Source: Deltaproteobacteria bacterium (GTDB lineage: Bacteria > Myxococcota_A > UBA796 > GCA-2862545). From it: 40,648 bases of DNA. The stretch lies in contig DRPG01000496.1 in assembly GCA_011376105.1 (NCBI GenBank), positions 1-40,648 on the forward strand. The letters are read 5' to 3'. Shown piece by piece: positions 10,477 to 40,648 of the stretch. Position 1 is the stretch's first letter. Every line of letters starts with the position of its first letter. The notes beneath the pieces were generated by a model, which worked only from the letters and a program-made list of their open reading frames with translations, was not told where the DNA came from and ran no database searches. The translations under genes and the position numbers were made by a program.

Positions 10477-13344
10477 CTACAGGTTGACCCGAAGGGTGGC
10501 GAAGAAGTTACGCCCCAGCTGCGGCAGCTCGTCGATCAAGAGATCGGCGCCCCCGGGATGGGTGATCGGCCAGTCGAGGAGGTTGCGCACGCCGATCCCG
10601 TACTCGAGGGTGGGTCGATCCAGGGTCCCGGTGAGGGTCACATCCCAGACCACGGCGCCGTCGGTGAGGTAGCCCGCCTGGGTCAGCCTCGCGGACTCTC
10701 CGCGGATCTTGTTTGCCAGCGTGACGCCGGGGCTCAGGGGGGTCGCGGTCATGAAGGAGCCGAGCAGGATGGGGCTGTTGGTCAGCGCGTCTCCATCGAT
10801 GAAGCCCCCCGTGCGGGTCCGCTGCCAGGAGATCTGGCTCGCCAGCATCCAGCCCGAGCGCCACCAGCGCCGGAGCTCGACCTCGGCCCCGGCGGTGCGG
10901 ACCGGCGCGTCGATGTTGGTGTACCGGAACACGCCGTTGTCGTCGATGATCTCGGTGTCGATCAGGTTGTTGATGCTGTTGTAGTAGCCGCTGACGGTGT
11001 GGGTGAGGACCTCGGAGTAAGCGTGGGTCCACTCGAACTCGCCGGTGAGGATCGTCTCCGATGACAGGCCCTCGGCGGCGGGCACCTGAGAGATCCCCCC
11101 GTCGGAGTAGAAGAACTCGAAGGGGCTCGGGGCCCGGAAGGCCGAGCCGGCGATGAACTTGAGGACCTCGTCGCCCGGAGAGAGGATCAGCGCGCCCCGG
11201 GGATGGGCGTAGGTGTTGCTCGTGGGATCACCCGCGTCGGTGTCCGCCGTCTCGTAGCGATCGATCCGGCCCCCGAGGTTGAAGGTCACCAGCTCCCCGG
11301 GGTGGAGATCGAGCACCCCGTAGGCCGAGTAGATCTGGGAGGCCGCGTCCTTGTCGAGGGGCTGGTTGAAGGGCTCGGCGTCGAGCGCCTCGATCTCGAA
11401 GCTCTCCAGGGTGGTGATGAAGTGCTGCCGGGTCTGGCCCCCGAGGGTGAGGCTCATGGCCTCGCCGAGGCTCTGGTTGAGCTGGGCGAGGGCGCCGAAC
11501 CACTGATCGTGGTTCTGGTCGTTGTAGAGGTAGCCCACACCATAGGGGCCGATGAACTCGTTGGCGTAGTTGTCGTAGAACAGCCGGAGATCGAGCTTGG
11601 TGTTGGGGGCGTCGGACTGATAGCGGGCCTCGAGGAAGCCGCGGTAGTCGTTGTTGGCCGAGCGATGATCCCCGAGGTTGGTCTGAAACGCTCCGGTGGG
11701 GATCTCTTTTTCGCTGGTGGTGTACATGCCGTGCAGGGTGAGGTTGCCGGCCCAGGCCTTGGCGTGCAGGGTGCGCGCCAGCGACTCGTCGGCGTCCTCC
11801 GAGATGCCCTGGCTGGGGGTGTCGGCGTACTCCCGGAACTCGTAGTCCCGGCCGGGATCGTACATCCCGGAGAGCGAGGCCCAGGCGCCGACGGACTCGT
11901 CCCCGATCCCCGCCCCCACCCGCGCCCGGATGGCCTGATCCGCGCCGGTCAGCGCCACGTGGGGCTGGTATCCATCGCCTCCGCCCTTGGTGACGAGGTT
12001 GATCACCCCGAACACCGCGTTGGAGCCATACAGGGCCGAGCCCGGCCCCCGGACGACCTCGATCTGCTGGATGTCTTGTAGATCGGCGATGCCATCGAGG
12101 CCGAGGTACGACGAGCCAAAGACGTTGTCGTTGAGGCTGTGGCCATCTGCGGTCAGCAGGATCCGGTTGCTGTAGTCGCCGAGGCGGGAGAAGCCCCGGA
12201 CCCCGAGGCCCTCGTAGGACAGATCGTTGGTGGGGTACAGGCCCCGGCTCCCGACGATCGCCTCGAGGATGCTCTGGTACCCAAAGGCCTTCAGCTCCTC
12301 CTGAGGGATCAGGGTGACGCTGGCCGGGGCCTCGGCGACGTTCTGGTCGAAGCGGCTCGCCGCGGTGACCCGGAACAGCGGGTTGAGATCGATCGAGCCC
12401 ATGTCGATGGTCTCGTCCTCGGAGATGTCGAAGGTCGCCCGGTAGGGCTCGTACCCTCCATAGGAGATCTGCAGCTCGTGGGAGCCCACCTGGACGTCGG
12501 TGAGCACCGCGGGGGTGTAGCCCACCGGGGCACCGTCGATCTCGATCAGCGCGCCGCGCTCGCCGGCATCGACGATCAGCGTGCCGGTGATGGGGGAGAG
12601 ATCTGCGACCAGCTCCAGCTCCTGATCCTGGAACACCTCGATCAGGTTGGGCTGGTTGCGGAAGCCCGGCTTGCGGAAGTACAGGATCTGCTTGCCCTCG
12701 GGCAGCTCCAGGACGCAGGGGATCTCACAGGACGGAGGTGCATCCTCGGTCTCGACGTGGACCGTCGCGCCCACCTCGCCCTCGATCGACACGCGGCCGA
12801 CGATCGGGACCAGCTTGAGGTCGACCTCGATCTGGGTGCCCGTCCGCTGTAGATCGTAGTCCTCGGTCTCGACGGTCTCGTAGCCTGGCTTCTCGATGAT
12901 CAGGCGGTAGCTGCCTGGCCTCCGGGGGATGTCCAGCGGGGTCTGGCCGATCGAGCCGAGGTTCCGGCGATCGATGTAGACCGTCGCGTCAGGGGGATCG
13001 GTGACGACCTTGAACAGGGCGATCCGGTCCTCGATCTTGTCGAGGCTCTCCAGGATCTTCCGGACGGTCTCCTCGCTGGGGGTGTCCTCCGCCTCCAGCG
13101 CGTCCTGGTACCAGCGGTAGGCCTCCGGATACTTCCCGAGGGCCTCGTAGGCCCGCCCGATGTTGAAGGTGACGTTGCGGTTGGGGGACAGCCGGTTGGA
13201 GACCATGAAGTGGAACAGGGCGGTGTCGAAGTCCCCGCGGTTGTAGGCGTCGCGGGCCAGCTGGAAGTTCACCTCTGCTTCGTCGGCGATGTTGCCTGCA
13301 TGAGCCGGAGTGAACGACGACAGAAGCAACAGCAGCAAGGTCAT
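10477..13344 (-). CDS. TonB-dependent receptor with TPR and PEGA-like N-terminal extension
   Basis: A 955-residue outer-membrane protein. It has a signal peptide (residues 1-16, ending AHA), a TPR-like helical pair (about 20-90), then three PEGA-like beta modules (about 110-185, 187-250, 252-325; for example DPPDATVYIDRRNLG and GALIEIDGAPVGYTP). The TonB plug follows (about 330-460, with IEVVRGPGSALYGSNAVFGVINLVTK), then a beta-barrel to residue 955. Transport substrate is unknown. Ordinary receptors have a TonB box right after the signal peptide; here about 310 residues intervene and I see no clear box. The ATG has no strong ribosome site. The lipoprotein gene follows 82 bp downstream. Confidence 0.93.
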   Translation of the reverse strand: MTLLLLLLSSFTPAHAGNIADEAEVNFQLARDAYNRGDFDTALFHFMVSNRLSPNRNVTFNIGRAYEALGKYPEAYRWYQDALEAEDTPSEETVRKILESLDKIEDRIALFKVVTDPPDATVYIDRRNLGSIGQTPLDIPRRPGSYRLIIEKPGYETVETEDYDLQRTGTQIEVDLKLVPIVGRVSIEGEVGATVHVETEDAPPSCEIPCVLELPEGKQILYFRKPGFRNQPNLIEVFQDQELELVADLSPITGTLIVDAGERGALIEIDGAPVGYTPAVLTDVQVGSHELQISYGGYEPYRATFDISEDETIDMGSIDLNPLFRVTAASRFDQNVAEAPASVTLIPQEELKAFGYQSILEAIVGSRGLYPTNDLSYEGLGVRGFSRLGDYSNRILLTADGHSLNDNVFGSSYLGLDGIADLQDIQQIEVVRGPGSALYGSNAVFGVINLVTKGGGDGYQPHVALTGADQAIRARVGAGIGDESVGAWASLSGMYDPGRDYEFREYADTPSQGISEDADESLARTLHAKAWAGNLTLHGMYTTSEKEIPTGAFQTNLGDHRSANNDYRGFLEARYQSDAPNTKLDLRLFYDNYANEFIGPYGVGYLYNDQNHDQWFGALAQLNQSLGEAMSLTLGGQTRQHFITTLESFEIEALDAEPFNQPLDKDAASQIYSAYGVLDLHPGELVTFNLGGRIDRYETADTDAGDPTSNTYAHPRGALILSPGDEVLKFIAGSAFRAPSPFEFFYSDGGISQVPAAEGLSSETILTGEFEWTHAYSEVLTHTVSGYYNSINNLIDTEIIDDNGVFRYTNIDAPVRTAGAEVELRRWWRSGWMLASQISWQRTRTGGFIDGDALTNSPILLGSFMTATPLSPGVTLANKIRGESARLTQAGYLTDGAVVWDVTLTGTLDRPTLEYGIGVRNLLDWPITHPGGADLLIDELPQLGRNFFATLRVNL

Positions 13345-13647: not shown

Positions 13648-14886
13648 CTAGACGACCTCGATCACCACGAGGGTGATGTCGTCGGAGGGCGGACGCGAGC
13701 CACAGTGGTGCAGCACCGTCTGCTGGATCTTGTCTCGGATCGCCTCAGCGCCCAGGTTCGCGTGCTGCTCGCACAGGGCCCTGACGTGCTTGTCACCGAG
13801 CTCCTGGCCCTTCTCGTTCTCGGCCTCGGTGATCCCGTCGGTGAGCAGGACGATGAGATCGCCGGGCTCCGCGTGGAGGTTGAGCTCGGTGTAGCTCACC
13901 GCCGCCTGGGCCCCCAGGGGCGGCTCGCGGACCCCCTGTACCACAGTGACCTCACCCCGCCGGATCAGCCAGGGGGGCTGGTGGCCTGCGTTGGTGAGCT
14001 GGACGCGGGGGGCGACGGGCTGCAGGGTCAGGGCGACCCCGGTCATCATGTACTCGCCGCGTGCGGCCTCGGCGATGACCCGGTTGAGCATCCGCATGAG
14101 CTGGCTCGGACGCAACCCCCCCCGCATGCCCATCCGTGCCAGATCGCAGGCGCCCTTGACCGCGCCGGTGATGATCGCGGACGGAGCACCATGGCCGGTG
14201 ACGTCTCCGACCACCACCAGGCCCCGCTCCGGGGTGAGCTCGTGGGCGGTCCACCAGTCGCCGCCGCACTGATCTGCGGGCTGGAACCAGGCGTGGATGC
14301 GGGCGCCGGGGACGCTGACGCCGGAGGACGGGGGCACCAGCATGTGCTGGACCGCCCCCGCGAGCTCCAGCTCCTTGCGCCCCGAGGCCATGGTGGAGGT
14401 CTCCTGGACCAGATCAGCGATCGCCTGAGACAGCGCCACCAGCCCTGTGTGCAGCACCCGGACCGAGCTGGCGGCCAGATCGAGCTCGCTGGCCTCGGCG
14501 GGCTCGAACCACTCTGCGCTCAGCTGCAGGTTGAAGCGCTGCTGAGCCGCCCGCAGCGCGGTGGCTAAGGCCTCGTTGTCTCCCTCGGCCGCAGCATCTC
14601 GGAACACCGACACCGCCTCGCGCAGGACCTCCAGCGTCTCCCCGAGATCCTTGTACTGCCGGGTCAGGGACAGGCGCATCCGGGTGAGCTCCTCGGTGGA
14701 GTAGGCCGCGACCTCCTCCAGCGCCTCGATGCGGAGCTCCCGATCGCTGAGCTCGGACTCGATCCGGGCGAGGAAGATCTGCCACTGATCCGGGCTGGGG
14801 GTCGAGCCCGAGAGGTTCAGCAGATCGAGCTGGGTTCGGATCAGCGCGTGGATGCGCTCGGCCGCGGGGGGGGCTTCATGGGTCAT
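13648..14886 (-). CDS. SpoIIE/RsbU-type PP2C phosphatase
   Basis: A 412-residue protein. Residues about 40-175 are helical and probably coiled-coil (receptor or dimer module). The PP2C/SpoIIE domain (about 176-412) has all metal-binding acids: GGDWW (Asp210), GDVTGHG (Asp228), TDGITEAEN (Asp350) and PSDDITLVVIE (Asp402/403). Enzymes of this class remove phosphate from Ser on STAS proteins. It is the last gene of the four-gene operon and its ATG overlaps the stop of the HATPase gene in an ATGA. The STAS proteins encoded upstream are its obvious substrates. No membrane segment is visible. Confidence 0.93.
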   Translation of the reverse strand: MTHEAPPAAERIHALIRTQLDLLNLSGSTPSPDQWQIFLARIESELSDRELRIEALEEVAAYSTEELTRMRLSLTRQYKDLGETLEVLREAVSVFRDAAAEGDNEALATALRAAQQRFNLQLSAEWFEPAEASELDLAASSVRVLHTGLVALSQAIADLVQETSTMASGRKELELAGAVQHMLVPPSSGVSVPGARIHAWFQPADQCGGDWWTAHELTPERGLVVVGDVTGHGAPSAIITGAVKGACDLARMGMRGGLRPSQLMRMLNRVIAEAARGEYMMTGVALTLQPVAPRVQLTNAGHQPPWLIRRGEVTVVQGVREPPLGAQAAVSYTELNLHAEPGDLIVLLTDGITEAENEKGQELGDKHVRALCEQHANLGAEAIRDKIQQTVLHHCGSRPPSDDITLVVIEVV

Positions 14887-15857
14887 GCCTGCACCCCCTC
14901 AAGGTAATACAGCGAGCGGGGGAGGCTGCGGATCTCCCTCTGGTTCACGGTACGATCGAGCATCCACGAGACCAGGGTCTGCCGCCCGGGGACGACCTCA
15001 GCCCGGACCACCGCGCCGCTCGAGAACAGGTTGAACAGCCCCAGGCCAGCGCCTCCATCGGAGACGTCGAGCACGCTCGAGGCCCTCGACGCCAACGCCC
15101 CCGAGCGCCCCCGCAGGATCCCCCCGAACAGCTTCCCCCGGGGCAGCCTCCCGAATGGATCGATAATGTCGAGGGCCAGGTGGGAGCTGTCGACGGTCAG
15201 GCGCAGGACGGGGATCTCGTGCTCTTCGAGCCGGATGTCCGCCTGCCTGTCCTCGGCGTAGCGCGGGCTGCCCGAGGCATCGACGGGCGCGTCGTACATC
15301 GCGTTCATCAGCAGCTCGTGGGCTGCATCCGCGGCGGTGCCCGCGAGGCGGCGACCGATCCCGAAGCGCATGGCGACCAGCTCCACGGCACGGACCGTCT
15401 GATCCCGATCGGAGGAGGTCCTCGGCCTCCAGGTGACCGTGCTCGCTCCCCACAGCAACAGATCCGCGGAGTTGGGGGGCGGCTGCTGGGGAGCGACGAC
15501 CCGGCGGACCACATACGACAGCTCCCAGGGGCGGACGCCGACCGAGCGCCACGCCAGGAAGCCCAGGATCTGTGGAGCCCGCAGCGCAGCCGCCAGCATG
15601 CTGTCGTCGATCTGGTGGGCGAGGACAGCGATCCGGACGTCGTGGATGGGCCGCAGGGCGGCGAGGGTCGAGGGCAGGTGACCGCTGCCGATGACGATCA
15701 GCCTCAGCTGGCCCCGGAGTCGAGCGAGGACCTCGTCGATGGAGCCCCCGACGACCAACGGCATTCCGCTGGCAGCCGAGGTCATGCATCGACCGACCGA
15801 GGGTGCGGCGCCCTCGTCGATCACGAGGGCCATGTGCGGCTGAGCACCGTTTGACAT
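14883..15857 (-). CDS. Pseudo-receiver plus GHKL ATPase (RsbW/SpoIIAB-like)
   Basis: A 324-residue protein. The N-terminal ~120 residues look like a receiver fold (LVIDEG, LIVIGSG, IAVLAHQ strands) but lack the acidic pair and phospho-acceptor Asp. The C-terminal half (about 150-300) has the GHKL marks: N-box HELLMNAMYD (Glu181, Asn185), DPFG (Asp233) and GGAGLGL (268-274). This is the pattern of anti-sigma-factor kinases such as SpoIIAB, which phosphorylate STAS Ser residues. It starts four bases after the kinase-STAS gene and overlaps the phosphatase by four bases, so the three should be made together. The ATG has only a weak ribosome site, consistent with translational coupling. Confidence 0.82.
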   Translation of the reverse strand: MSNGAQPHMALVIDEGAAPSVGRCMTSAASGMPLVVGGSIDEVLARLRGQLRLIVIGSGHLPSTLAALRPIHDVRIAVLAHQIDDSMLAAALRAPQILGFLAWRSVGVRPWELSYVVRRVVAPQQPPPNSADLLLWGASTVTWRPRTSSDRDQTVRAVELVAMRFGIGRRLAGTAADAAHELLMNAMYDAPVDASGSPRYAEDRQADIRLEEHEIPVLRLTVDSSHLALDIIDPFGRLPRGKLFGGILRGRSGALASRASSVLDVSDGGAGLGLFNLFSSGAVVRAEVVPGRQTLVSWMLDRTVNQREIRSLPRSLYYLEGVQA

Positions 15858-15861
15858 GGGC

Positions 15862-18105
15862 CTAACTAACCAGGGGAACGAGGGCGGTGGAGCCTGCGAG
15901 CAGCAACAGCAGCAGGACAGCGACCTGGCGCATGCATCCCCCCCTCGCCCGGCTCGGCTGGGGGGGAGGCGCGACGATCGGTGCAGCGATGACGGGCGGA
16001 GGCTGGTGGCTCAGGGCGGGCGGAGAGGGCACCTGGCCGATCGACAGCGTGTCTAGATCCTGGAGATCGCTCGTGACGGTCAGGGTCCCCCCGCAGCGAC
16101 CACAGCCCGAGTTGATCTGGATCGTGTTGCGTTCCCGCAGGCGCTGGACCTGGAGGATCGCGCGACGCTCGGTCCCGCAGTCGTTGCAGCGGGCCTCGAT
16201 CTGCAGCGACACCACCTGGAGGATCGGCCGCAGGGTCCCGGAGCTCGCGATCGCCTCGCACACCGCGAGGGGCGCTCCGACGATCTCCACGAGCTCCAGC
16301 TGGGTGGCGATCCCCTCCAGCGCATCGACGAAGCCCTCGATGCCCGGGGCCGAGACCGAGGGAGACTCGGACAGATCGAGCCGGATCTGGCCCTCGAGGC
16401 CCTGGACGATCCTGCGCCAGCGTGCATCCGATCGGATCGGACGCCGGATCGCGAGGATGGTCCGATCGTCCTGGACGGTGAGCTCCACGTCGAGCTTTCG
16501 GCCCTGCTCGTCGAGGGTGGCGAGGGCCGCGGTCAGGTGGCTGGGGACCTCAGCGAGGAAGTCACCGCTGAAGTTCAGGTACAGATCCGGCTCGTCGTCG
16601 AACTCAGCGGGCCGGGAGGGATCGGAGGGGGAGGGGACCCGGGGCACCCGGAGGTGCTCGACGGCCTCGAGGCCCTCTCTGCCCTGCAGCAGGACGGTGA
16701 AGTAGGTCCCGTTGCCCGCGTCGATGTACGGCGCATGGAACGACAAGATCTGCCCACCCCCGAGCAGCCCCCGGATCATGGTGACCTGGTTGATGAACGC
16801 GACCGAGCACCGGACGTGGTACAACCCCTTGGTCCTGGAGCGGGACTCCGACACCAGCGCGATCAAGCTGCGGATCCCGAACGAGGTGATCCGGTTGACC
16901 CCGCCGGTGTCGATCACCACCTCGCCACGGAGGTGCTCCACCAACGGGGCATGATCGAACTTCTCGTCGAGCACCCCCGACAGGCGCACGATGGTGACCC
17001 CGGAGACCCGTCGGACGTGGGCGTGATCGTCCTCGAACAAGACCTGGCGATCGTTGGTGGGATCGGGGGGAGCGACCTCCCCCGAGCCGGACGCGGGAAG
17101 ATCGATGGTCTGCGGCACGTTGCCGCTGTTCTGCAGCAGGGCCTCGTCGGGCTGTAGCTGCTGGCGGGGGCCGATGACCTTCTCCACCAGCGAGGAGAAG
17201 CCCACGGTGGAGATGAACAGGCCCTTGGCCTGGGAGAAACGCTCTAGATCGGCGAGCATGTCCCGGGCCGTGGGGTAGCGATCCGCGGGACGCTTCTGCA
17301 GGGAACGGAGCACGATCGCCTCGAGCTCGGGGGCGATCCGGGGGTTGATCAGCCTCGGGCTGGGGGCTGGATCGTCGATGATGCTGCGCATCGTGTCGTA
17401 GGCGTTCTTGCCCCGGTGCGGCACCGTGCCGGTGAGCAGCTGGTACAACACCACGCCCAGGGCGTACAGATCCGTGCGGCGATCCAGCGGTGCGCCCCCG
17501 CACTGCTCGGGGGACATGTACAAGACCTTGCCCTTGAGCACGCCTGACTCAGTGCCCGACAGGCTCTGATCCGTCTTGGCGATCCCGAAGTCGAGCAGCT
17601 TCACGCCACCGTCGTAGGTCAGGAAGATGTTCTGGGGCGAGACGTCGCGGTGCACGATGCCGTGGTTGCGGCCGTCGGGGAGGACCCGATCGTGGGCGTA
17701 GTGCAGGCCCGCGAGGACCGAGCGGATCACGTAGAGCACGTGCTCCAGCGTCAGCACTATCCCCTGGGTGTGGGCCCTGCGGCGAAACTGCTGGAGATCC
17801 GCGCCCTCGAGGAGCTCCATGACGATGACGTACTCCTCCTGGCTCTGGATGACGTCGTACGTCTGGACGATGTTGGGGTGCTGCAGGGTGGAGGCGAGCC
17901 TCGCCTCCTCAAGGAACATGGTGAGGAAGTCCTTGTCCCGGGCGTGGGCTGGCAGCATGCGCTTGAGCGCGACCCGCTTGGTGACCCCCCCCACCCCGGA
18001 GACCTCTCCGAGGTACAGCTCCGCCATCCCTCCGGTGGCGATCCGACGGAGAAATCTGTACTGGGATCGCCCGGGTGACCGTGGGTGGTGCCCGGGTTTG
18101 TCCAT
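15862..18105 (-). CDS. Ser/Thr protein kinase fused to double-STAS and zinc ribbon
   Basis: A 747-residue protein. The kinase domain (about 16-292) looks active: GGMAELY loop, Lys48, HRD 152-154, Asn159, DFG 172-174 and SPE 198-200. STAS module 1 (about 367-455) has RITSFG, with Ser408 aligning with the SpoIIAA phospho-acceptor. A degenerate linker (460-520) precedes STAS-like module 2 (about 548-635). A zinc ribbon follows (Cys640, Cys643, Cys668, Cys671), then a Pro-rich stretch and a hydrophobic C-terminus (about 726-745) that could be a tail anchor. Residues 367-640 are clearly homologous to residues 98-365 of the upstream gene's product. The start codon shares one base with that gene's stop. 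Confidence 0.9.
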   Translation of the reverse strand: MDKPGHHPRSPGRSQYRFLRRIATGGMAELYLGEVSGVGGVTKRVALKRMLPAHARDKDFLTMFLEEARLASTLQHPNIVQTYDVIQSQEEYVIVMELLEGADLQQFRRRAHTQGIVLTLEHVLYVIRSVLAGLHYAHDRVLPDGRNHGIVHRDVSPQNIFLTYDGGVKLLDFGIAKTDQSLSGTESGVLKGKVLYMSPEQCGGAPLDRRTDLYALGVVLYQLLTGTVPHRGKNAYDTMRSIIDDPAPSPRLINPRIAPELEAIVLRSLQKRPADRYPTARDMLADLERFSQAKGLFISTVGFSSLVEKVIGPRQQLQPDEALLQNSGNVPQTIDLPASGSGEVAPPDPTNDRQVLFEDDHAHVRRVSGVTIVRLSGVLDEKFDHAPLVEHLRGEVVIDTGGVNRITSFGIRSLIALVSESRSRTKGLYHVRCSVAFINQVTMIRGLLGGGQILSFHAPYIDAGNGTYFTVLLQGREGLEAVEHLRVPRVPSPSDPSRPAEFDDEPDLYLNFSGDFLAEVPSHLTAALATLDEQGRKLDVELTVQDDRTILAIRRPIRSDARWRRIVQGLEGQIRLDLSESPSVSAPGIEGFVDALEGIATQLELVEIVGAPLAVCEAIASSGTLRPILQVVSLQIEARCNDCGTERRAILQVQRLRERNTIQINSGCGRCGGTLTVTSDLQDLDTLSIGQVPSPPALSHQPPPVIAAPIVAPPPQPSRARGGCMRQVAVLLLLLLAGSTALVPLVS

Positions 18106-20426
18106 CAGGGGCCCTCCAGCGGCAACAACTCCAGGCTCGGGGGCTTGGGAGCGGTCTGCCGCACGAAGCCTACCTCAGCCGGCCTGTCCCCGTGGTAGAG
18201 CTGCATGCTCATCCGCTCGCCCTCTTCCAGATCGTTCCAGATCTGCTTGGCGATCTTCACGTAGTCGTCCGGGGACGTGACGCTGCGCCCCTCGACGGAT
18301 CGCATGCCGTCCTGAGGGGCCGCGGATCGAAACCAGGACGCTGCCTGGGTGATCACGAGCGGGGTCTGCTGGTGGGGCTGCTGGGTGTAGTCGGTGGGGA
18401 ACCTGCGTGCGACGGCCAGCCCACGGAAGGTCCGGCTCGTGCCGTAGTACTCCACCAGACGATCCCACACCTGCTTCGGCAGGGCGTGCTGGGTGACGAC
18501 GGTGATCTCTCCGGCGCTGCGCTTGATGCTCGCGTTCACGCGCTCCGGCGTCGCCCAGTCCCCCACGTCGCGCAGGTACTGATCGACCACCCGATCGGGA
18601 TCGGGCTGGTTGCCGGCCTCAAGGGGAATGAGCGCCTTGCCCGCAGGCTTGCTCCGGATCTCCTGCCGCAGGTTCCGGATCAGCTCGTAGATCGCGGCCA
18701 CCTTGGAGCGCTCTGCGGTCTCGTCGGTGTCGGTGCCGACGGCCGTGCCCACGATCAAGACCTGCTCGTCGTTGACCAGGAAGGTCTGCTCGACCCAGGG
18801 AGGTGGCAGCTCGTTGCCTCCATCCCAGCCCTCGCTCTGGGGCGCGGCGCTCTCGAGGGACCGCTCGCCCGAGGCCACCGCGGGCAGCTGGAACAGATCG
18901 GTCCGCGAGCTGATGATCCAGCCCACCGTGATCAACACCAGGATCGCCCCCACCAGGGACATGAACGCCGCGACCGCCGCGGCCTGCCACATGAGCCCTG
19001 TGTTGTTGCTCGGGGGCGGAGGCTGCTGGGCGTGGAGGATGGGGTGCGGCGTCGACTGGGTCTGGTAGGGCGGAGCTGTGTGGTGGGGGATCGGGGTCGG
19101 ATGAGGAGCGTGGGGGTAGGGTGCTGGCGGAGGCTGGTAGATCCGCTCGGGCTCCGGCGGGTGGTTGTTGGGGCCGAGCTCAGCGGCGGCTCGGAACAAC
19201 ACGTCGGTGTCGGAGATGTCCACCGGGCCGATCGCCCAGTTGGCCTCGATCGGAGGCAGCCGGTGGCTCATCAGCACCTGGCGGCGACGATCGATGTCCA
19301 CCAGGACCGGCCGGGTGATCCGGTTGGCGAGGCAGCGGGCCTCGACGAACATGCTCGAGACATACACACGCCGAACCGGATCGGTCAGCAGGGAGCGGAT
19401 CAGATCGATCGGGGCTCCGTCGAGCCAGACCTCCGAGACCTCGTGATCGAGATCCCGTAGGGCCCCGATGAGGCGGTGCAGCCCCGCTGGATCCACCGCC
19501 GGGGTGACGCTGAGATCGAGGGTGACCCGACCCTCCAGACCGGAGAACGCACGGCGGAGCCGGAGCCGGCCATCCAGCGGCGCGTTGAACCGGATCCGGG
19601 TCTCCTGCTCGGAGATGAACTTCTCGATCGGATCGATCCGGTTGGTGCTGGTGAGGTGGTTGACCACCTGCTGCAGATCCGAGGGCACCGCCTCGAGGAG
19701 GTGCTCGTCGAGGGCGAAGTAGCTCCAGGGATCGTCGTCCATCTCGGCGGCCCCGTGGCAGTTGGGGCACTCCACCTTCGCCGGGCTCCGGCCGAGGATG
19801 TACTCCCGATCCGTGACCGCCTCGTACAGGGCGCCGAACTCCTCTCCACAGCCCGCGCAGGTGTAGGGCACCATCAGGGAGTGGATGTGGCCCGGACCGC
19901 AGAAGTTCCGCATCATGGTGATCTGGTTGATCACCGCCTCGCTGCAGCGGAAGAAGTAGCAGGCCGACATCCTCGAGGTCTCGAGCATCTGCAGCCAGCC
20001 CTTGACCCCGAACGACGAGACCCGATCGACCTCGGCGAGATCGAAGACGACGGTCCCGCTGAGGCTGCGCCCCAGCTCTGCACCCCGGAAGGACTCGTTG
20101 ATCCGACCCCGCAGGGTCACCACGGTCATGCCCCCGACGGGGCGGGCGTCGACGACCACGTCCCCGGGGGGGAGGTAGCTGCGCCGGAGGATCGGACGGC
20201 GCTCAGGGCGGACCCCCTGCGGCTCAGCGGGGGGCTGAGAGCGAGCCTTGGCCTTGGCGGCGGCGTCTGCCTCGCTCTGGGCGAACGTCTCGAACGCGAA
20301 CCCAGGCTCCTCCCCAACAGCGCCGGCGTCTTCGAACACGAGGGTCTTCTCGTATGAATCATCGTCTCCGTCTCGCTGGAAGCGAACCGGGGGGGCCCCG
20401 CCATGCCCCGTGTTTTTGCCTGACAT
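18105..20426 (-). CDS. Membrane double-STAS protein with zinc ribbon and PDZ-like extracytoplasmic domain
   Basis: A 773-residue protein, first gene of the operon. The N-terminal 90 residues are disordered. STAS module 1 (about 98-185) has RVSSFG with Ser138 in the phospho-acceptor position. A zinc ribbon follows (Cys190, Cys193, Cys220, Cys223), then STAS-like module 2 (about 277-365) and a Pro/His-rich linker (420-472). One membrane segment (about 479-505) leads to an outside region. Residues 545-595 (VLIVGTAVG, then helix) resemble an LPP20-type fold, and 685-757 resemble the second half of a PDZ domain (DGMRSVEGRSV). Function is unknown; the layout suggests a sensor linking the envelope to partner switching. 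GGAGAAGG precedes the ATG. Confidence 0.85.
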   Translation of the reverse strand: MSGKNTGHGGAPPVRFQRDGDDDSYEKTLVFEDAGAVGEEPGFAFETFAQSEADAAAKAKARSQPPAEPQGVRPERRPILRRSYLPPGDVVVDARPVGGMTVVTLRGRINESFRGAELGRSLSGTVVFDLAEVDRVSSFGVKGWLQMLETSRMSACYFFRCSEAVINQITMMRNFCGPGHIHSLMVPYTCAGCGEEFGALYEAVTDREYILGRSPAKVECPNCHGAAEMDDDPWSYFALDEHLLEAVPSDLQQVVNHLTSTNRIDPIEKFISEQETRIRFNAPLDGRLRLRRAFSGLEGRVTLDLSVTPAVDPAGLHRLIGALRDLDHEVSEVWLDGAPIDLIRSLLTDPVRRVYVSSMFVEARCLANRITRPVLVDIDRRRQVLMSHRLPPIEANWAIGPVDISDTDVLFRAAAELGPNNHPPEPERIYQPPPAPYPHAPHPTPIPHHTAPPYQTQSTPHPILHAQQPPPPSNNTGLMWQAAAVAAFMSLVGAILVLITVGWIISSRTDLFQLPAVASGERSLESAAPQSEGWDGGNELPPPWVEQTFLVNDEQVLIVGTAVGTDTDETAERSKVAAIYELIRNLRQEIRSKPAGKALIPLEAGNQPDPDRVVDQYLRDVGDWATPERVNASIKRSAGEITVVTQHALPKQVWDRLVEYYGTSRTFRGLAVARRFPTDYTQQPHQQTPLVITQAASWFRSAAPQDGMRSVEGRSVTSPDDYVKIAKQIWNDLEEGERMSMQLYHGDRPAEVGFVRQTAPKPPSLELLPLEGP

Positions 20427-20564: not shown

Positions 20565-21152
20565 CTAGCGCTCGTCCTCGATCATGGGCTTTGGGGTTGA
20601 AGGAGATGGAACAGGGGGTGGGGTGGGCCTCCGGACGCGGGGGAGGGTGGGGCTCCAGTGCTGAGTCGGATCATCCATCCGGATCTCCTGGGTCTTATAG
20701 CCCTTGAGCTTGAAGGTCAGGTCTCGCTCGAGGCGCTCCCCAGCGGGGTGATCGATGGTGCAGGGGGTCCGGGAGCACAGCAGGTTGTCAGACTCCCAAA
20801 CCTCGGCGCCCTCGGGGCTCGAGCTGATCTCGATCTGGATGATGCTGTCTTCTTGAGGGACGGGATCGTGGATCGGGAGCCGGATCTCAGCGGTTGGATC
20901 AGGCTCGACCGACTTGACCTGAGGGGACTCTATGACCAAGAAGACGATCAAGACCAGGCCGCTCGCGAGCACGACCGTGCCCATGACCCCGAGGACGAGG
21001 AGCATGGGCAGCAGGGAGCGGGTTGGAGGAGGAGGAGGGAGGGGGGTGGTGAGCTGGAGCATTCCGGTGTGGGGAACCAACTCTGCACCGTCAACGAAGC
21101 AGTACTCAACATGGTCGTCGTACTCAGCACGACACTGTGGGCAACGCTTCAT
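20565..21152 (-). CDS. Zinc-ribbon membrane protein with PEGA-like domain
   Basis: A 195-residue protein starting with a zinc ribbon (MKRCPQCRAEYDDHVEYCFVDG), then a Pro run, one membrane helix (about 49-75) and an outside domain (about 97-155). The outside domain has PEGA character (IQIEISSSPEGAEVWES, then a GY segment). The Cys pair in LLCSRTPC could form a disulphide. The ATG at 21152 was chosen because the zinc ribbon then starts the protein; an in-frame extension to 21236 gives 28 unconvincing residues. The ribosome site is weak (GGCGG). It lies 138 bp upstream of the double-STAS gene on the same strand and shares the ribbon-helix-outside-domain layout with it. Function unknown. Confidence 0.8.
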   Translation of the reverse strand: MKRCPQCRAEYDDHVEYCFVDGAELVPHTGMLQLTTPLPPPPPTRSLLPMLLVLGVMGTVVLASGLVLIVFLVIESPQVKSVEPDPTAEIRLPIHDPVPQEDSIIQIEISSSPEGAEVWESDNLLCSRTPCTIDHPAGERLERDLTFKLKGYKTQEIRMDDPTQHWSPTLPRVRRPTPPPVPSPSTPKPMIEDER

Positions 21153-21670
<518 letters not shown>

Positions 21671-22765
21671 GTGTCCAGCCGTGCCCGGATCTTCGATAAG
21701 GCGGCCTTCCATCTCGACTCAGTCCGGGCCCATGGTCTCGACGATCACCAGGCGGTGGTCCACGCAGGGCTGTACTTTGGCTGGGCGGTGGAGCGTGGGC
21801 TGGTGGCGGAGTGGCTCGAGGCCCGGACCCCCGAGGCGTTCGCAGCCTACCGCGCCCGCGAGATCAGCGGGGGGGAGCTGCTGGCTCGCTGGGACGGCGC
21901 GCTCCTCGAGGACATGTTCACCGACGAGGGAGCGGCCTTTGCCGCGGTGTACCTGGATCACCAGAGCGGGAGCTTCCTCGACGACTACCTGCGCACGATG
22001 GCCCGGGGGCTCCCGTCGGAGTACCACGTCGAGGACTCCCGGGAGAACCACGAGCGGCTCGCTGTGGTGCTCGACGAGCGCTACACCACCTGGCGTCGGG
22101 GCTGGGATCCGGGCGCACCAGGCCCCAGGGTCCCGGGCGCCACCCGCACAAGAGCTCCCGCCCCGCCCGAGCGCGGCAGGATCCCGATCCTGCCGGTGAC
22201 CCAGGGGATCGCGCTGCCTCCGGGCGCTCTGTCGATCCAGGTCCGGCGCCCGGGCTCGGTGGTGGCGATCGAGGCCGCCCGGGCCGGGGACGGCTGGCTG
22301 GGGCTGGTGAGCCCGGCGCAGCCGGGCGGGAGCTCGGATCCGACGCCCGGCGATCTCCTGCAGATCGGAGTGCTGGCCTCCGTCACCCAGATCGCTGAGT
22401 CCCCGGGGGTCCCCGGTGGGCTGGACGTGGGGGTCTGCTGCCGGGCCCGGATCCAGATCGAGGCCTGGGGTGAGGGCTGGTGCGCCGACGTGGTCCGCCT
22501 CCCAGAGCCCGAGCCCACCAGCGGGGACGCAGCGTTGCTCGAGGCTGTCCGCCACGGCGTGGGGGAGGCACTGCGCAGCCGGCGCCGGGCCGGGGAGCCG
22601 CTGGGGCTGCTGGCCCTGGCCCCGACCCTGTCGGGAGCTGCGCTGCTGGACGCGGTCGCCGCTGAGCTGGGGCTGAGCCGAGAGGAGCGGCTGCTGATGC
22701 TTGAGGCCCCGGATCTGATGACCCGGGCCCAGCTGGTGCGTGCGGCCCTAGAGCGTGGGCGCTAG
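21671..22765 (+). CDS. Fusion of DUF7832-like domain and Lon N-terminal-like domain
   Basis: A 364-residue protein starting at GTG with GGAGG five bases upstream. Residues about 5-145 match a small uncharacterised family (I believe DUF7832) by the order of its motifs: DKAAFHLDSV, HAGLYFGWAVERGLV, a WDGALLEDMFTDEG segment, LPSEYHVEDSRENH and DERYTTWRRGW. A Pro-rich linker (150-172) leads to a second domain (about 173-360) starting IPILPVTQGIALPPGALSIQV, which resembles the PUA-like N-terminal substrate-binding domain of Lon protease. No protease or ATPase part is present. The stop codon falls inside the first unit of a 19-bp repeat. It converges on pntB. Role unknown; a substrate-recognition function is speculation. 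Confidence 0.75.
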   Translation: MSSRARIFDKAAFHLDSVRAHGLDDHQAVVHAGLYFGWAVERGLVAEWLEARTPEAFAAYRAREISGGELLARWDGALLEDMFTDEGAAFAAVYLDHQSGSFLDDYLRTMARGLPSEYHVEDSRENHERLAVVLDERYTTWRRGWDPGAPGPRVPGATRTRAPAPPERGRIPILPVTQGIALPPGALSIQVRRPGSVVAIEAARAGDGWLGLVSPAQPGGSSDPTPGDLLQIGVLASVTQIAESPGVPGGLDVGVCCRARIQIEAWGEGWCADVVRLPEPEPTSGDAALLEAVRHGVGEALRSRRRAGEPLGLLALAPTLSGAALLDAVAAELGLSREERLLMLEAPDLMTRAQLVRAALERGR

Positions 22766-37816: not shown

Positions 37817-40648
37817 CTACTCCGCCTCGGGGCGGGCTCCGGGGCGCTTGCGGGGGCAGGCGAGCACCATCCTCACCGCGACCGAGGTGTGCCCTTCGAG
37901 CTTGGACTGTAGCCGGGCGGTGGAGGCCGCCGCCCGCCAGGCCTCGAGGACCTCGAAGAGCATGAAGGCCTCGGGGTTGTCGTGGGGCGCGGCCTGGCGC
38001 TCAAGGGTGGCCACCAGGGCCCGCGCCACTGGATCCGGCAGCGCCCCGACCGCTTCCTCGTGGGCGGTGTCGTGATCGCCCCGGAGCATCAGGTTCAGGG
38101 CGAACAGGGCCTGGATCCGGCTGTGCTCGGGGGCGGAGCCGGCGAGGGCGAGGAAGAACATGCGCTCAGCGTCGTCGAAGTTGTGCTCGATGGTGTAGAC
38201 CACCCCGAGGATCCCCCGCGCCAGGGCCACCAGCCCGTGGGCCGAGGCCTCCCTCGCCGACTCCATCACCTGCTCGAGGTGCTCGGTCGCCTCGTCTGCG
38301 GCTCCGATGCCGACCAACAGCTGAGCCAGCCGCATCTGGCACCGGCAGGCGTGGAGGCGATCGCCTCCGTCGAGGAACACCTCCATCGCCTCGGACAGCA
38401 GGGCCACCGCCCGCCGCCCCTGCCCCCGGGTCGCGAGGACCTCGGCGAGGTGGCGCTGGCTGTGGGCCGAGCCGATGTCGGCGTCGAGGATCCCGAAGCC
38501 GTGGAGCGCCTCGACAAAGGCTCGCTCGGCCCGGGTGCCGTCGCCCTTGGCCACCAGGACACGGCCCCGGAGCAGTGCGGCCGTGGCCAGCACCCAGGGA
38601 TCGGTGGTGGTGAGCCGGTGCAGCGTGGCCTCGGCCTCGGAGGTGGCGCTCAGCTCCATGTGGAGCCAGGCGGCGTTGACCAGCAGCCCGACCTCGCCGG
38701 GGGGGAGCCGCTCCGAGGCCTCCCGCAGGGCCTCCCGCGTCTTCTGAGGCTGGCCGAGGTACAGGTTCAGCCTGGCGCTGGCCAGCAGGGCCGCCGCCCA
38801 CCAGGGGGGGCTGCCCTCGGAGGGCTCCCTCAGGGTCGGCTCCGCGAGGATCCGCTCGACCGCCTCGCACAGGGGTCCGGCCTGCTCCTGGCCGAGGATC
38901 GCGGTCAGCCCCAGCGCTGCCCCCGCGGCGGGGGGCCCGCCCTGCTGCAGCGCTCCCCGGAGGTTCTCCCGCTCCCGGAGCAGCACCGCGCGCTCGGGAC
39001 GCTCCACCCATGGCCGGCACCCCAGGCGCAGCCCCAGCGTGCCGTAGCACACGCCGTGGCGCTGCTGCGCGTCGTCGAGGGCGTAGGGGCTGAGGGTGCG
39101 GCGGAGGTAGGAGCGGACGGTCTCGTACGCGCTCCAGCGCATGCTGGTCGAGTCGGCCCCTGCGGTCATCTTGAGCAGAGAGCGTGCACACAGCGACTCG
39201 ATCGCCGTGATCATGCCCCGGTCACGGACCGGCATCTGGATCACTGACTCAGCGCTCCCTAGATCGAAGCCACCCCGGAAGACGATGCACTGATCGAGGA
39301 CCGCCCGCTCGACACGATCGAGGCGATCGATGGTGGCGGCCAGATCTGCGTCGAGGCCCGCCTCCCCCCACTCGAGATCCTGCCCGCGCTCGAGGCGCTC
39401 GAGCAGCAGATCGGGAGCCAGAAAGGCGGTCTGGGCCGCTGCGGCCTCGATGGCCACTGGCATCCGATCGAGGTGGTTGACGATCGCGGTCGCCAGGGAC
39501 CCATCGATCTCGGTGCCGGGCCGGAACTGAGCCACCCGCTCCCGGAACAGATCGACGGCGTCCTCCTCGTCGAGGGCGACCAGCCGGATGCAGCGCTCCC
39601 TGGGGAGCTTGAAGGCCCCCCGGCAGGCCACCAGGACCCGCCCCCCGCCCTCCTCCGGGGCCCGGGACGACCAGGCCTCGAGCGCCGCCTTCAGCGCAGG
39701 ATCCGGATCGGGGGCCTCGAGGAACAGCAACAGATCGTCCCGCTGGGACAGCATGGTGCCGATGTCGGTGAGGATCTCCTTTTCTTTTCGCCCGATCCTG
39801 CGGATCCCCAGCCCCCTGGCGAGCCTCGAGATCATGGGCTCAGGGCCGTTCACCAGGCAGTGGTGGACCTCCCAGCCCTCCGACTGCAGCTCGTGGGCGG
39901 TCTGCAGAGAGAGCTGGTTGGCTCCGCTGCCGGGGGGACCGACCACGCTGACCAACGGGGCCTCGTCCAGGGCGTCCCGCACGACCTCGAGCTGAGGCTC
40001 CCGGCTGCGGAGCGAGGCGTCGAGCTCCGGCAGGGGCTCGGGGCGGATCTCCGGCGCCTCCCCTGGATCGAAACGGTAGCCGACGCCATAGACGTTGAGC
40101 AGGTGATCAGGCTCCGCCGGATCGTCCTCGATCTTCTTGCGCAGCCGCGTCACGATGCCGCGGATCGAGTCCGGGGATCCGTGCTCCTCTCCGAGGGCCT
40201 CGCGCCAGATCCGCTCGCGATCGAGATCCCGGTGGGAGTTCTGGGCCAGGTACGACAGCACCGCGGTCTGGTTGCTCGACAGCCGGGTGAGCTCCTCACC
40301 CCGCAGCACCAGCCCCTCCTCGAGATCCACGGTCACGGCCTTGAGGTGTAGCACGCTGGCGCTGGCCCTCGGCTGCAGCGGCAGCTCCTCCTGCTCCTGG
40401 GGCTGTGCGCTCCATAGGTCATCGCCCTCGTCGCCCTCGTCGCCCTCGTCGCCCTCGTCGGGGGAGGCGACCGGGCGGGGCTGCAGCGGCAGCTCCCGCT
40501 GAGGCACGGTGGGCTTGGGCTGCACCTGGGGTAGATCGTCCCAGGGCTCGGGCTCTTCGTCCTCGCTGAGGGGGACGTGGCGGGTGGCGATGCCGCGCAC
40601 CACGTGCCCGATGGACTCCACGTCGACGTCGATCTCATCGGGGTCCAC
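37817..40648 (-). CDS. Winged-helix regulator with degenerate ATPase and TPR repeats (reaches right edge)
   Basis: At least 943 residues; a GTG at 40648 could be the start or an internal codon, so treat the N-terminus as open. Residues 1-95 are acidic and disordered, including an EGD repeat. A Trans_reg_C winged helix (about 99-193; LSSNQTAVLSYLAQN, GVGYRF) is followed by a STAND/NB-ARC-like ATPase (about 210-480) and TPR-like helices to the end. The layout matches AfsR/LuxR-like STAND regulators. The Walker A reads GPPGSGAN (237-244), with Ala and Asn where Lys and Ser/Thr are expected. The Walker B-like strand (LLLFLEAPD) has Glu in place of the usual Asp. ATP binding is therefore doubtful. 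No operon partner is seen. Confidence 0.85.
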   Translation of the reverse strand: MDPDEIDVDVESIGHVVRGIATRHVPLSEDEEPEPWDDLPQVQPKPTVPQRELPLQPRPVASPDEGDEGDEGDEGDDLWSAQPQEQEELPLQPRASASVLHLKAVTVDLEEGLVLRGEELTRLSSNQTAVLSYLAQNSHRDLDRERIWREALGEEHGSPDSIRGIVTRLRKKIEDDPAEPDHLLNVYGVGYRFDPGEAPEIRPEPLPELDASLRSREPQLEVVRDALDEAPLVSVVGPPGSGANQLSLQTAHELQSEGWEVHHCLVNGPEPMISRLARGLGIRRIGRKEKEILTDIGTMLSQRDDLLLFLEAPDPDPALKAALEAWSSRAPEEGGGRVLVACRGAFKLPRERCIRLVALDEEDAVDLFRERVAQFRPGTEIDGSLATAIVNHLDRMPVAIEAAAAQTAFLAPDLLLERLERGQDLEWGEAGLDADLAATIDRLDRVERAVLDQCIVFRGGFDLGSAESVIQMPVRDRGMITAIESLCARSLLKMTAGADSTSMRWSAYETVRSYLRRTLSPYALDDAQQRHGVCYGTLGLRLGCRPWVERPERAVLLRERENLRGALQQGGPPAAGAALGLTAILGQEQAGPLCEAVERILAEPTLREPSEGSPPWWAAALLASARLNLYLGQPQKTREALREASERLPPGEVGLLVNAAWLHMELSATSEAEATLHRLTTTDPWVLATAALLRGRVLVAKGDGTRAERAFVEALHGFGILDADIGSAHSQRHLAEVLATRGQGRRAVALLSEAMEVFLDGGDRLHACRCQMRLAQLLVGIGAADEATEHLEQVMESAREASAHGLVALARGILGVVYTIEHNFDDAERMFFLALAGSAPEHSRIQALFALNLMLRGDHDTAHEEAVGALPDPVARALVATLERQAAPHDNPEAFMLFEVLEAWRAAASTARLQSKLEGHTSVAVRMVLACPRKRPGARPEAE
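40421..40459 (-). repeat. 9-bp repeat coding EGD units
   Basis: GTCGCCCTC (plus strand) occurs about four times in tandem, giving (Glu-Gly-Asp)4 in the acidic N-terminal part of the regulator. Confidence 0.85.

Follow-up and report, generated by a model that had tools for sequence, protein, structure and literature searches.

A candidate partner-switching module of Myxococcota whose STAS domains are joined to a Ser/Thr kinase and a membrane protein

Background

Partner switches that act on an enzyme are known from the SiaABCD system (PMC7647112), and SypA provides a further example with no sigma factor as output (PMC8256260). The plan of a receiver domain followed by a Bergerat kinase domain was shown in 2026 for LvrC, which was proposed to act on a sigma factor of unstated identity (PMC13269768). 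Fusions of STAS (COG1366) to Ser/Thr kinases (ELK) were recorded in Sorangium cellulosum in a 2010 survey, which suggested a kinase-linked function for them and reported a link to kinases for few SpoIIE genes; the four-gene module described here is absent from its text (PMC2887360). Our own literature search, to which most subscription journals were out of reach, found no study of this module.

Ser/Thr kinases are very numerous in myxobacteria, and their inputs are mostly unknown. Here we describe an operon of four genes, A to D, in a stretch of DNA of 40,648 nucleotides (the window), in which the proteins of a putative partner switch include a Ser/Thr kinase and a membrane protein that both bear STAS domains.

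Results

An earlier note, made from the sequence alone, had described four abutting or overlapping genes and had recognized in them the parts of a partner-switching module with STAS domains inside a kinase and a membrane protein. The window sequence confirmed the minus-strand operon A-B-C-D at 13648-20426 together with all three junctions: the stop of A and the start of B overlap in TGATG with base 18105 in common, B and C are spaced by 4 bp, and C and D overlap in ATGA (Table 1). The parts list was likewise borne out.

Table 1. Positions of the genes, domains and presumed acceptor residues in the window
Feature	Position	Strand	Description
Gene A	18105..20426	-	773 aa; STAS-zinc ribbon, STAS-degenerate ribbon, membrane helix, C-terminal PDZ region
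A first STAS and zinc ribbon	19728..20135	-	residues 98-233; CxxC at 190 and 220
A Ser138, presumed phospho-acceptor	20013..20015	-	begins helix 138-150 in the model
A second STAS	19209..19607	-	residues 274-406; acceptor position occupied by Pro; most ribbon cysteines lost
A membrane helix	18894..18980	-	residues 483-511 (AlphaFold model)
A post-helix region	18147..18800	-	residues 543-760; C-terminal part PDZ-like
Gene B	15862..18105	-	747 aa; Ser/Thr kinase, STAS-degenerate ribbon, STAS-zinc ribbon, C-terminal membrane anchor
B kinase domain	17236..18060	-	residues 16-290; Lys48, HRD 152-154, DFG 172-174
B first STAS	16588..17001	-	residues 369-506
B Ser408, presumed phospho-acceptor	16882..16884	-	in the first STAS of B
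B second STAS and zinc ribbon	16075..16467	-	residues 547-677; CxxC at 640 and 668; acceptor position occupied by Ala
B C-terminal membrane anchor	15868..15924	-	residues 728-746
Gene C	14883..15857	-	324 aa; receiver-like domain (7-121), Bergerat kinase domain (139-320)
Gene D	13648..14886	-	412 aa; N-terminal region, SpoIIE phosphatase (197-411)
Gene E	20565..21236	-	223 aa; zinc ribbon, membrane helix, PEGA-like domain

Gene E lies 138 bp upstream of A. It precedes A in the window, in a paralogous operon of the same genome (L016) and in the sister species, and is a possible accessory member of the module. About 300 bp after D we noticed a 955-aa protein that joins TPR repeats and two PEGA domains to a TonB-dependent receptor plug (10477-13344, minus strand); the same fusion directly follows D in the sister species (L042:143-3031), and a functional link to the module is possible. 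Elsewhere in the window, a DUF7832 domain is joined to a LON substrate-binding domain (21671-22765, plus strand; present in the sister species too), and TPR repeats are fused to an OmpR-type DNA-binding domain (37817-40648, minus strand).

A and B contain a homologous double unit, in each repeat of which a zinc ribbon follows a STAS-like domain; in alignment the two proteins have ~350 residues in common at 31% identity (E 1e-38). Two STAS repeats had been claimed for each protein, and these stand; the ribbon after every STAS is an addition. No STAS domain exceeds the NCBIfam or Pfam cut-off in A or B (Pfam E 0.009 in A and 1e-4 in B). Built from 35 first repeats, a profile matched 4hyl, a solved STAS structure (4e-5), and the STAS domain of prestin (6e-5); zinc-finger proteins that topped its matches were set aside as chance hits through CxxC pairs. 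The AlphaFold model of A has a pLDDT above 90 across most of residues 90-420 and was matched by Foldseek to the SpoIIAA chains 1thn_B and 1tid_D with a probability of 1.00, at a modest E of 0.013-0.017. The profile and the model of A thus support the STAS folds expected from the sequence.

The ribbon cysteines are intact in the first unit of A and the second unit of B. The full set occurs in 37/40 first repeats, 34/40 second repeats and 16/16 single-unit proteins. Beyond its membrane helix, A has a further folded region, the C-terminal part of which matches PDZ domains in model comparison; Pfam recognizes PDZ in Sorangium homologues, one of them a B homologue with a PDZ tail. One Sorangium A homologue (L056:12282-15965, plus strand) carries FIST_N and FIST_C sensor domains ahead of its STAS pair.

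A phospho-acceptor Ser had been assigned to both A (Ser138) and B (Ser408). Both residues are present, with the correction that each belongs to the first STAS of its protein only. The presumed acceptor is found in 39/40 first repeats, 14 of the 16 single-STAS relatives and 0/40 second repeats. Related sequences are among those counted, and neither these numbers nor those given below for the homologues of C and D represent independent events. In B the first STAS keeps its Ser in 10/11 cases, the exception being the homologue in L086. We take Ser138 and Ser408 to align with the first Ser of the DS[ST]G motif of SpoIIAA (Ser58) and RsbV (Ser56), and sequence and predicted fold agree in placing a Ser at the start of a STAS helix, as in partner switching. 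Since the Ser occurs in first repeats and never in second ones, A and B would each have one switchable and one silent STAS.

In a tree of 87 repeats, the first repeats and single units fall on one side (support 96) and the second repeats on the other, where one B row with its second repeat alone recovered also groups; this is consistent with one old duplication of a tandem repeat. The first repeats of A and B from Type I loci, in which kinase and STAS are fused, cluster together (support 94) in this tree of few columns and many open forks, which does not settle how A and B are ordered inside Type I.

B begins with an unambiguous kinase domain (Pfam Pkinase, 1e-37) that has the catalytic Lys, HRD and DFG of a Hanks-type Ser/Thr kinase, so that its description as a Ser/Thr kinase with a double-STAS tail holds; to this we add that B is predicted to be tail-anchored in the membrane. 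PADLOC matched the kinase domain alone, generically, and a defence system was rejected.

Neither Pfam nor NCBIfam gives a significant match for C. Its AlphaFold model is confident (pLDDT 91), and the closest solved folds are LvrC (9qih, 1.2e-07), SpoIIAB (1.4e-04), SiaB (5.9e-04) and RsbW (9.0e-04). The N-terminal half matches receiver domains weakly in profile comparison (0.006), and, as in LvrC, a receiver fold stands N-terminal to the Bergerat domain. The N-box (E181/N185) and the residues D233/G236 and G271/G273 are kept in 64/64 homologues, which provides the Bergerat (HATPase) kinase of a partner switch in both fold and motifs. The canonical receiver acceptor Asp is replaced by Gly in the window protein and present in many homologues; the earlier note had described C as a pseudo-receiver/HATPase protein. 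D supplies the SpoIIE/PP2C phosphatase alongside, as had been proposed: its SpoIIE domain is unambiguous (Pfam 1.6e-40), the motif residues D210, D228, D350 and D402/D403 are present, and D228 and G231 are kept in 23/23 homologues. The best NCBIfam match of D is SiaA, under the cut-off.

In GTDB genomes, relatives of C were found at 46 loci; most of the records are titled Myxococcales or other Myxococcota, and a few are of Bdellovibrio type. Of 113 related genomes, the window's own counted, 8 have a C relative. All four genes occur together in seven further loci (L042, L056, L058, L059, L060, L065 and L071; L042 shares its genome with L054), whose hosts include the sister species, Sorangium (L059) and Kofleriaceae. 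The orders found, A-B-C-D, C-D-A-B and D-A-B-C, are rotations of one another. The set therefore recurs in other genomes, which answers the concern that the gene order might be found only here and rules out a lone curiosity. Other loci are truncated by contig ends: L061, L073 and L086 retain B-C together with A or its end, and L055, L057, L062 and L063 retain C-D.

In a second arrangement an A-like protein comes after C, and the opposite strand usually bears a Ser/Thr kinase gene. In a third, C occurs with a single STAS-zinc ribbon gene, which in Bdellovibrio adjoins a SpoIIE gene; at most other C loci, too, a STAS-zinc ribbon gene adjoins C. Several large proteins were seen at such loci. A 1717-aa protein with Ser/Thr kinase, AAA, GAF and SpoIIE parts lies beside C and a single STAS gene (L050:933-6086, minus strand), and in L091:1765-10408 and L097:1815-10411 a single STAS-zinc ribbon gene precedes a giant protein of ~2150-2160 aa, with the C relative divergent. 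TPR repeats are present in the giant protein of L091, the one tested. STAS and C are similarly spaced in L094, L096 and L099. A paper on Bdellovibrio MglA was considered as a source on STAS-TPR loci, and its text gave no support.

Among 71 genomes of the window's class, only those of its genus have the double-STAS form; most weak matches to A in other genomes of the class covered the PDZ region alone and were discarded. Across the phylum the distribution is patchy, with matches to the STAS-zinc ribbon profile in 46/284 genomes, some of them weak and over the STAS part alone.

The window's own genome holds a second E-A-B set truncated by the end of its contig (L016), a lone A (L017), a C-D pair (L019) and a lone D (L018). 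Two C paralogues, on C636 and C688 (L002:1285-2445 and L003:729-2027), have no STAS gene in the stretch read, so C relatives may also act elsewhere. These two share a C-terminal extension of ~70 aa that the window's C lacks.

Discussion

With a probability of roughly 0.55, we propose that A-B-C-D is a membrane-associated partner-switching module in which C and D act as a switch on STAS domains and so set kinase B, with A competing. We infer the phosphotransfer, the binding of C to STAS, the direction of control and the signal as follows. C, as an RsbW-like kinase, would phosphorylate the first-STAS Ser of A (S138) and B (S408), and D would strip the phosphate from both. Unphosphorylated STAS would hold C and phosphorylation would free it, while the second STAS and the zinc ribbons could serve in structure or docking. 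As the STAS of B forms one polypeptide with a Ser/Thr kinase, the switch is proposed to set the state of that kinase. By competition for C, A may bring in a signal from the envelope or from a small molecule, sensed perhaps by the PDZ region beyond the membrane helix or, in Sorangium, by FIST. That the Ser/Thr kinase is itself the switched partner, with the RsbW-like kinase acting on its STAS and a membrane paralogue competing, in a family of the Myxococcota, is a tentative proposal.

We count the existence of partner switches with an enzyme output, such as SiaABCD (PMC7647112), in favour of the module reading; the scores of STAS under the Pfam cut-off, the L086 homologue without a first-STAS Ser, the two C paralogues with no STAS gene in the stretch read and the confinement of the double-STAS form to one genus among the 71 genomes of its class count against it. 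Judged from sequence, the link of the kinase to the module is strong where the two are fused (Type I). It is weak where a kinase gene is adjacent alone (Type II), because B's kinase has more than 150 matches in each of the six Type II genomes compared and the neighbour is not the closest of them: the best matches elsewhere score well above the neighbours (about 200 bits), so the neighbour was rejected as an orthologue.

A and B could instead be multi-domain RsbR/RsbS-like proteins of a stressosome-like scaffold that holds C; when a signal comes, C would phosphorylate them, detach and go on to act on D or another protein, the kinase of B being one of several sensor or output heads. Such a scaffold would suit the joining of STAS to varied heads and tails (the kinase in B, FIST in the Sorangium A homologue, the PDZ tails) and the presence in each module of a pair of distinct STAS proteins that both have the Ser. 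However, the RsbR/RsbS plan is not known to include tandem STAS with a silent copy, zinc ribbons or membrane anchors, and RsbT lacks a receiver-like domain such as that of C; with their tandem STAS-zinc ribbon units and receiver-like domain, A, B and C do not fit the pattern of an RsbS-like single STAS, an RsbR with an N-terminal sensor and a receiver-less RsbT. We regard the scaffold as unlikely.

An ordinary switch with a remote output, in which C would sequester a sigma factor whose gene lies elsewhere, with A and B as membrane-tethered antagonists, draws on the fold of C, nearest to LvrC, SpoIIAB and RsbW, and on the proposal that LvrC acts on a sigma factor (PMC13269768). We nevertheless think it decidedly improbable: as the earlier note had held for the neighbourhood, scans of genes in the window and of flanking genes at the two related loci (sister species and Sorangium) turned up no sigma factor, and such a switch would not explain why STAS is fused to a kinase. 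That B acts upstream, phosphorylating C, D or A with its STAS region serving merely to dock it, fits the intact kinase and the unfused Type II kinase gene near C and A but has very little chance of being right, given that docking alone would not need the Ser kept in the first STAS of B and that the Type II adjacency may be unrelated in view of the abundance of kinases in these genomes.

If C and D do switch the STAS of B, one class of these kinases would gain a concrete and testable input, and protein kinases would join sigma factors and cyclases among the outputs of partner switching. As C has no family match and the STAS domains lie under the cut-off, the module escapes standard annotation and is likely under-counted. 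The pairing of a switchable with a putatively silent STAS, each with a zinc ribbon, makes a clear target for structural work and biochemistry.

Comparison with known systems

The module has in common with RsbV/RsbW/RsbU and SpoIIAA/SpoIIAB/SpoIIE the STAS Ser at a helix start, the Bergerat kinase and the SpoIIE phosphatase. Its STAS domains, however, are tandem, bear zinc ribbons and are fused to a kinase or a membrane protein instead of forming a small free antagonist, and no sigma gene was found near it. SiaABCD of Pseudomonas aeruginosa has the same phosphatase/kinase pair acting on a SpoIIAA-like protein with an enzyme, not a sigma factor, as output; D finds its best NCBIfam match in SiaA, if under the cut-off, and C resembles SiaB. 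The output there is a separate protein, a diguanylate cyclase, whereas here a Ser/Thr kinase covalently bears the STAS.

LvrC of Leptospira (9qih), the best structural match, has the two-domain receiver and Bergerat plan of C. Its receiver is canonical and is phosphorylated by LvrB, whereas the window's C is without the acceptor Asp and is encoded together with its presumed STAS partners. The RsbRST stressosome likewise combines STAS fused to other domains with a Bergerat kinase and a PP2C-type phosphatase, and the module differs from it in the tandem STAS-zinc ribbon units, the membrane anchors, the Ser/Thr kinase head and the receiver-like domain on C. The ELK fusions of Sorangium cellulosum show the same joining of STAS and kinase in a myxobacterium; the survey reached them via COG1366, and Pfam STAS gave no match in the Sorangium B homologues tested. 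STAS-kinase fusions and non-sigma partner switches are already known, and we read the present set as a probable partner-switching module built into a kinase.
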